This document shows, piece by piece, positions 2,444 to 4,921 of a stretch of DNA of 50,139 nucleotides. The notes under the pieces were generated by a model, which worked only from the letters and a program-made list of their open reading frames with translations, was not told the DNA's origin and ran no database searches. Origin of the DNA: Aeropyrum sp. (GTDB taxonomy: Archaea; Thermoproteota; Thermoprotei_A; Sulfolobales; Acidilobaceae); NCBI GenBank assembly GCA_015523465.1, contig WAKF01000049.1, positions 1-50,139 of the forward strand, read 5' to 3'. The position numbers and the translations under genes are program-made. Every line of letters begins with the position of its first letter. Position 1 is the stretch's first letter.

Positions 2444-2474
2444 CCGTTTATGCCGGGATTGAACATGTTCAATC
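2444..2474 (-). promoter_or_regulatory. Oxidase operon promoter with 18-bp palindromic operator
   Basis: Positions 2457-2474 form a perfect 18-base palindrome (GATTGAACA/TGTTCAATC). On the minus strand it lies directly upstream of a weak TATA-like element (GCATAAAC, about 2446-2453). A start site about 26 bases further on would leave a leader of roughly 25-30 bases before the small gene at 2392. A dyad just upstream of the TATA/BRE region is where archaeal activators usually bind. The neighbouring HTH regulator (2483-3031) is the obvious candidate ligand, which is inference. Confidence 0.6.
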
Positions 2475-2482
2475 GAGTTCTG

Positions 2483-3031
2483 CTAGACTATCTGGGCTAA
2501 GGCCTTCCCTACAATCCTTCTCAGAATATAGGAAAGCTGGGATTTAGAATATCCTAAGTTTGCCGCCAGGGACTCGAGTTTGGACCTCCTTCGATACTTG
2601 AAATATCCGCTCTCAAGGAATTCCCGTGCAATAAAGTATTCTTTCTCATTAAATACTAGGTCCTCAGGCTTAATTTCCTCTACAGATATGAGACACGGAC
2701 CATACTCTTCGGGGTTTGGAATCCTCCAGTTTTTGCCAGCAATTATCACAACAGCAATAACCCTATCCCTGTGCACCTTAAAGTTGACTAGATAGAATCT
2801 TGTTAGGAGCTCCCTTACAATGCACTTACGAGTTTCTAGGAAGATACATTTAGATGTAGAGTTGAGGCTAACTTTTACATCTTTCCCTTCAATTCTAGGC
2901 TTGTAATCACTTTCTAGCTTAAACACGTGACATATACTATCGTCCTTGACTTTAAACCCTATGTGGCTACCACATTTTAGCAGCTTCTTGGCTACAGGGC
3001 AGGGGGTGAAATATAGTTTTAAAACTCTCAA
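2483..3031 (-). CDS. Bat-type (HTH_10-like) transcriptional regulator
   Basis: A 182-residue protein. Its last 55 residues (about 127-178) match the C-terminal HTH of the bacterio-opsin activator group: an acidic N-terminal helix, an aromatic G-Y-F/Y turn, then 'LESLAANLGYSKSQLSYILRR'-like recognition helices (positions 152-172). The N-terminal 120 residues belong to no family I recognise. They contain six cysteines (11, 20, 34, 62, 70, 113), which could bind metal or sense redox state. The start is TTG, and no ATG lies near the N-terminus. The gene is visibly more AT-rich than its neighbours. It lies just upstream of the oxidase operon on the same strand, separated by the palindrome, so it probably regulates oxidase expression. 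Confidence 0.8.
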   Translation of the reverse strand: MRVLKLYFTPCPVAKKLLKCGSHIGFKVKDDSICHVFKLESDYKPRIEGKDVKVSLNSTSKCIFLETRKCIVRELLTRFYLVNFKVHRDRVIAVVIIAGKNWRIPNPEEYGPCLISVEEIKPEDLVFNEKEYFIAREFLESGYFKYRRRSKLESLAANLGYSKSQLSYILRRIVGKALAQIV

Positions 3032-4803: not shown

Positions 4804-4921
4804 TGGTGCCGCCGCCGGGATTCGAACCCGGGACCTCCGGATCTCTCAGGCCCCCGCTCCGACCCCGGAGTCCATGCATGGCCGTATGAGTCCGGCGCTC
4901 TGCCGGCTGAGCTACGGCGGC
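4804..4921 (-). tRNA. tRNA-Met (CAT) with a 42-base intron
   Basis: The 5' exon is 4921-4885, the intron 4884-4843 and the 3' exon 4842-4807, followed by an encoded CCA (4806-4804). The acceptor GCCGCCG pairs with CGGCGGC and the T arm is CCGGG-TTCGAAT-CCCGG. The spliced anticodon loop is CTCATAA. The intron lies at the canonical 37/38 site. Its ends form an ideal bulge-helix-bulge: outer stem CCGGA/TCCGG, 3-base bulge AGA, 4-bp helix CTCA/TGAG, 3-base bulge TAC, then GGCC/GGCC. G1-C72 and the anticodon stem argue against an initiator. Elongator Met is preferred over tRNA-Ile2 (also CAT), which usually begins GGG. Confidence 0.95.

Follow-up and report, generated by a model that had tools for sequence, protein, structure and literature searches.

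Little is known of how respiratory chains are switched in archaea, and the literature searched yielded no regulator for a terminal oxidase of the Thermoproteota. Bat, the bacterio-opsin activator of Halobacterium, binds DNA through an HTH_10 domain and acts from a site upstream of, and adjoining, the TATA region. Bat also has REC/PAS/GAF and BAT domains (PMC5847659, PMC11218638). NarO and DmsR are HTH_10 proteins without PAS/GAF domains that have been described as haloarchaeal respiratory regulators, and for haloarchaeal denitrification NarO has been called the only regulator described (PMC11218638). One motif, CGAAYATDKTYG, is common to the nirK, nor, nosZ and narGH promoters of Haloferax mediterranei and is located 66-79 nt upstream of the ATG of nirK, nor and nosZ. 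Mutations in this motif lowered the activity of the nos and nor promoters, and its regulator was left open (PMC10062603).

The locus described here lies in a 50,139-nucleotide stretch of Aeropyrum sp. DNA that was analyzed as a whole ("the window"). It offers a regulator, a putative operator and a candidate sensing pair for a thermoproteotal terminal oxidase. From sequence comparisons, we consider it likely that the regulator is a local, cysteine-sensing protein of the DmsR/NarO kind, dedicated to the neighboring B-type oxidase and most likely its activator.

The oxidase operon and its promoter

Relatives of the oxidase were compared from Acidilobaceae archaeon S141 bin 228 (same genus; 76% identity to the window's), Desulfurococcales archaeon S141_84 (70%), Desulfurococcaceae archaeon AG1 (68%), an archaeon of another family (G026; 66%) and SCGC AAA261-N23 (50%). 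The operon is on the minus strand, as is the regulator gene. Its first gene (2228-2392) encodes a 54-aa, single-helix, IIa-like subunit with homologues in S141 bin 228, S141_84, AG1 and G026. It is followed by the genes for subunit II (1693-2217; COX2, PF00116), which bears the CuA motif CNEYCGVGHQFM, and subunit I (5-1678; COX1, PF00115). In subunit I, H72, H234, Y238, H286, H287, H389 and H391 are invariant in the relatives; we take these residues to be the haem ligands, the CuB ligands and the H-x3-Y pair. Together with the CuA motif, they identify the enzyme as a B-type (ba3-like) haem-copper oxidase. The small single-helix subunit, the CuA-bearing subunit II and the metal-ligand set of subunit I are all features of known B-type (ba3) oxidases with a subunit IIa. 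The window's enzyme, however, belongs to an archaeal clade, and bacterial subunits I are at most about 46% identical to it (best segment). B-type oxidases are typically high-affinity, low-oxygen enzymes.

The regulator gene (2483-3031, minus strand) encodes 182 residues and starts with TTG; in its relatives the start codon, TTG or GTG, falls at the corresponding residue. A gap of 90 bp (2393-2482) separates its stop codon from the first oxidase start codon (2392, minus strand). Within this gap, a short way past the regulator stop codon, is the perfect 18-bp palindrome GATTGAACATGTTCAATC (2457-2474), a putative operator. The initial annotation had placed an exact 18-bp palindrome just upstream of the oxidase TATA box. 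The palindrome was confirmed and its placement held, but the TATA-like element, as read from the sequence, is weak (CATAAACG; 2445-2452, minus strand).

GATTGAACATGTTCAATC is the longest perfect palindrome in the window. It is the only copy both there and in the whole 1.8-Mb genome, even with up to three mismatches allowed; with one genomic copy, a role as a genome-wide regulon site was rejected. A perfect palindrome of at least 18 bp arose somewhere in 11 of 40 shuffled 50-kb windows, and one within the 90-bp gap had a probability of 0.0004 by shuffling. The first oxidase gene has its start codon 68 bp downstream of the dyad core. Across the loci compared below, this distance ranges from 41 to 86 bp, and the geometry of any activation is therefore not fixed by these data.

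Recurrence of the regulator and the dyad

Comparison established that the regulator adjoins this oxidase beyond the window. Three other archaea have an orthologue (28-51% identity) adjacent to this oxidase, with the window's orientation in S141 bin 228 and divergent from the oxidase in S141_84 and G026. The orthologous loci thus number four, partly from metagenome bins. When 229 genomes of the class were searched with a profile of the four regulators, strong matches (E<1e-80) were obtained solely in the four genomes from which the profile had been built. A scan of genome contigs with the window regulator alone gave no match. No such regulator adjoins the oxidases of AG1 and SCGC AAA261-N23; the AG1 genome has more distant HTH_10 proteins elsewhere, one of them beside a second oxidase. 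In two closed genomes of the window's genus, no protein reached the threshold used for HTH_10, and the closest subunit I is 32-33% identical to the window's; the distribution of the module within the genus is therefore patchy.

All four loci carry the dyad at the same oxidase promoter. Aligned on the dyad, the window 16-mer (ATTGAACATGTTCAAT) is identical to that of G026 at 16 of 16 bases. In S141 bin 228, the dyad ATTGGACAGTTCCAAT has the compensated form ATTGGA-N4-TCCAAT, in which changes in one arm are matched in the other and the outer six bases remain complementary. The S141_84 promoter has the dyad CTAGAACATGTTCGAG with the core GAACATGTTC. In shuffle tests against the window 16-mer, 0 of 20,000 shuffles matched the result for G026, and P was 0.00025 for S141 bin 228 and 0.006 for S141_84. 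Where the oxidase has no adjacent regulator, no dyad was seen at its promoter, and the same test gave P=0.997 (AG1) and P=0.97 (AAA261-N23). Of 214 genomes searched across the order, two contain the exact 16-mer, those of the window and G026, each with one copy, at this oxidase promoter. The near-matches inspected elsewhere were in or beside unrelated coding sequence at four loci and had no clear target at a fifth. The scan of relatives that the initial annotation had proposed thus recovered the operator at oxidase promoters, and the regulator was found with oxidase genes elsewhere. Its idea of a self-contained control unit stands insofar as regulator, operator and oxidase travel together. Given these comparisons, the regulator very probably binds the palindrome specifically.

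A second paralogue of the regulator (33% identical) was found in the S141_84 genome, where it is divergent from narGH (L181 1401-7385, contig C44); the latter carries the Pfam nitrate reductase beta C-terminal domain. The gap between paralogue and narGH contains CTGAACTAGTTCAA (P=0.0015, shuffle), and a 12-bp palindrome, TGAACTAGTTCA, is located between the genes. Four sites within one mismatch of TTGAACNNGTTCAA occur in this genome, and the site in the narGH gap is one of them. The combination of regulator, half-site and respiratory genes is therefore seen in two contexts, at the oxidase loci and at the narGH locus.

Other HTH_10 genes were also surveyed. The second such gene of the window's genome (L064 3712-6518, contig C81) is divergent from a quinol NO reductase (qNOR)-like gene that is 28% identical to a haloarchaeal nor-type gene; the short gap between them contains no matching palindrome. 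At seven other loci of the order, HTH_10 genes are neighbors of aa3 oxidases, cytochrome bd, molybdenum reductases and a qNOR. No matching operator was found at the two aa3, one bd, one multihaem and two qNOR promoters inspected. A different HTH_10 group is found, at six loci, next to a recurring gene cluster that combines a lyase-like gene with aconitase-type subunits and, in some cases, a transporter; HTH_10 genes are thus not solely respiratory.

The regulator and its haloarchaeal relatives

Residues 129-176 (2504-2647, minus strand) match HTH_10 (PF04967) at 36.7 bits, against a curated cut-off of 23.1, which bears out the earlier assignment of a Bat-type HTH. The likeness to Bat is confined to this domain: Pfam found no REC, PAS, GAF or BAT domain in the 182-aa protein, which does not belong with the Bat-type sensors. 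Bacterial oxygen regulators of the FNR/CRP type are similar in their working, with a cysteine-bearing sensor domain, a palindromic operator and respiratory targets, but their HTH and sensor fold are unrelated as far as the searches show, and the regulator had no FNR-family match in those that were run.

The N-terminal, sensor-like domain (residues 1-127; 2651-3031, minus strand) gave no Pfam match. Six cysteines precede the HTH (C11, C19, C34, C62, C70 and C113), as had been pointed out previously; emphasis on all six was overstated, since just two of them, C11 and C70, are shared by all relatives. Nine HTH_10 proteins encoded next to respiratory genes, namely those of B-type, aa3 and bd oxidases, narGH and a multihaem gene, all have both. 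In an AlphaFold2 model (pLDDT 81, from an alignment of three sequences), the domain comprises two beta-Cys-alpha-beta-beta units, each with its cysteine at the start of the helix. The signal of an internal repeat in this domain was suggestive in the S141 bin 228 regulator (P=0.006) and absent from those of the window and S141_84. In the PDB, a sequence search matched the HTH alone and Foldseek, run with both AlphaFold models, returned nothing significant; we therefore make no assignment to a fold family.

Of four haloarchaeal relatives scanned, three combine DmsR_N (PF24277) with HTH_10 (L205, L206 and one of L208), with DmsR_N scores of 140-164 bits. One relative, from Haloferax larsenii, is upstream of a nar-type operon, the position described for NarO. 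Plasmid sequences searched with NarH gave mostly bacterial matches. The window's N-terminal domain did not match DmsR_N up to E=10; the protein is accordingly not filed as a member of that family, and the proposal is that it functions in the manner of one. Direct profile comparison of the domain with DmsR_N was not significant (P=0.22); comparison via intermediates gave 5e-5 and 9.7e-5, and a joint profile 0.001. When the HTH was included, the alignment with the DmsR_N family spanned 123 columns, among them C70, at 1.6e-16. Invariant in the haloarchaeal family are C17 and the pair C82-X-C84. The profile alignments pair C70 with this C-X-C via intermediates that have C-P-C, although in an automatic alignment of 78 proteins C70 may pair with a later cysteine instead. 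The initial annotation had stated that the domain matches no sensor. This holds for Pfam, but the profile comparisons and the shared cysteine positions tie it to the DmsR_N/NarO domain and suggest a distant relationship. The cysteine motif of NarO is said to be C-Xn-C-X-C-X7-C; the window protein has C11, C70 and no C-X-C, and the H. larsenii protein in the NarO position has C-A-C-X7-C.

The wider resemblance to DmsR and NarO comprises the C-terminal HTH_10, a length of about 180-215 residues without PAS/GAF, N-terminal CP...C cysteines, a place beside respiratory genes, a paralogue divergent from narGH (in S141_84) and a GAAC-N2-GTTC core that is also present in haloarchaeal denitrification-type promoters. 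On the other hand, the window's N-terminal domain is below Pfam recognition, it has a single C70 in place of the haloarchaeal C-X-C, the presumed target of the protein is an oxygen reductase rather than an anaerobic reductase, and the protein comes from the Thermoproteota rather than the Halobacteria.

The GAAC-N2-GTTC core is common to the window palindrome and the H. mediterranei motif. It occurs in 14 intergenic copies in 13 haloarchaeal loci. Of these copies, 11 precede a start codon by 20-120 bp (mostly 39-47 bp), against 0 or 1 for each of seven control palindromes built on the same pattern. The sites are concentrated in three clusters (Halarchaeum, Halomarina and Halomontanus), and the neighborhoods of several DmsR_N-type genes, including the H. 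larsenii gene in the NarO position, lack the palindrome. The association of motif and family is therefore suggestive rather than general. As a separate observation, clusters of nor, DUF2249, radical-SAM/RiPP and DmsR_N regulator genes (L206 17598-24303, L208 355-1906, L205 7898-7907) have repeated GAAC-N2-GTTC, often exactly 39-42 bp before the ATG. The GAAC-N2-GTTC promoters of the nor clusters have no obvious TATA box, and twice a single site serves two divergent genes.

Proposed action of the regulator

The regulator, probably as a dimer and dedicated to the neighboring operon, would bind the palindrome (core GAAC-N2-GTTC) through its HTH_10 domains. Thus bound, it would abut the TBP/TFB site on its upstream side, in a weak promoter, a position that fits recruitment, and it would most likely recruit the basal factors. 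Activation of the oxidase promoter is fairly likely. The regulator might instead repress the oxidase by hindering TBP/TFB or RNA polymerase, with release by oxygen, oxidation or a metal. This is unlikely: it would draw on the same binding evidence, and the dyad is close enough to the promoter core for hindrance (the transcript start is uncertain in G026), but in the window the dyad is upstream of, and next to, the TATA-like element, and the weak-looking promoters fit activation.

The N-terminal domain would probably read the state of oxygen or redox, or a bound metal or cofactor, through C11 and C70. From the cysteines, the gene neighbors and the published relatives, redox or oxygen sensing appears somewhat the better supposition. 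Induction at low oxygen would be the favored sign of the response, because B-type oxidases are typically of high affinity and the relatives act in anoxia. A signal of metal or haem, reflecting copper or haem supply for the oxidase and bound by C11, C70 and perhaps H35, is improbable. The target is a haem-copper enzyme, and C11-P12, H35 and C70, which are invariant in the orthologues and the narGH paralogue, make a plausible ligand set. However, H35 is lost in the wider set of proteins, where the two cysteines alone are invariant, the enzyme that the narGH paralogue would control is not a copper enzyme, and the nearest characterized relatives are described as oxygen sensors (PMC11218638).

That the palindrome is a chance occurrence, an RNA hairpin or a terminator without regulatory role is very improbable: about a quarter of the shuffled windows held one as long, and in the window it comes shortly after the regulator stop codon, but it is conserved at every base in another family, its arms stay complementary despite changes in S141 bin 228, and it is missing where the oxidase has no adjacent regulator. 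A terminator for the regulator was ruled out because the regulator is divergent from the oxidase in S141_84 and G026.

Against the favored reading, a dedicated, DmsR/NarO-like activator, count the small number of orthologous loci, the failure of the N-terminal domain to match DmsR_N in Pfam or by direct comparison, the haloarchaeal DmsR_N genes that have no palindrome nearby and the other oxidase-adjacent HTH_10 genes at which no operator was found. The likeness of the sites in distant archaea suggests that the mechanism by which respiration genes are switched is old and shared. Tentatively, GAAC-N2-GTTC placed shortly upstream of a weak core promoter and the cysteine-sensor HTH_10 family may control B-type oxidase, nitrate reductase and NO reductase in the Thermoproteota and the Halobacteria, as an ancient archaeal counterpart of bacterial FNR. 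The prediction across the two phyla is that DmsR/NarO-type proteins read GAAC-N2-GTTC, which would propose a reader for the H. mediterranei motif.

Apart from this locus, the window contains a tRNA gene at 4807-4921 (minus strand) that was not called by ARAGORN at the settings used; it scored 60.5 bits with Rfam and, at 115 bases, is long enough for an intron.
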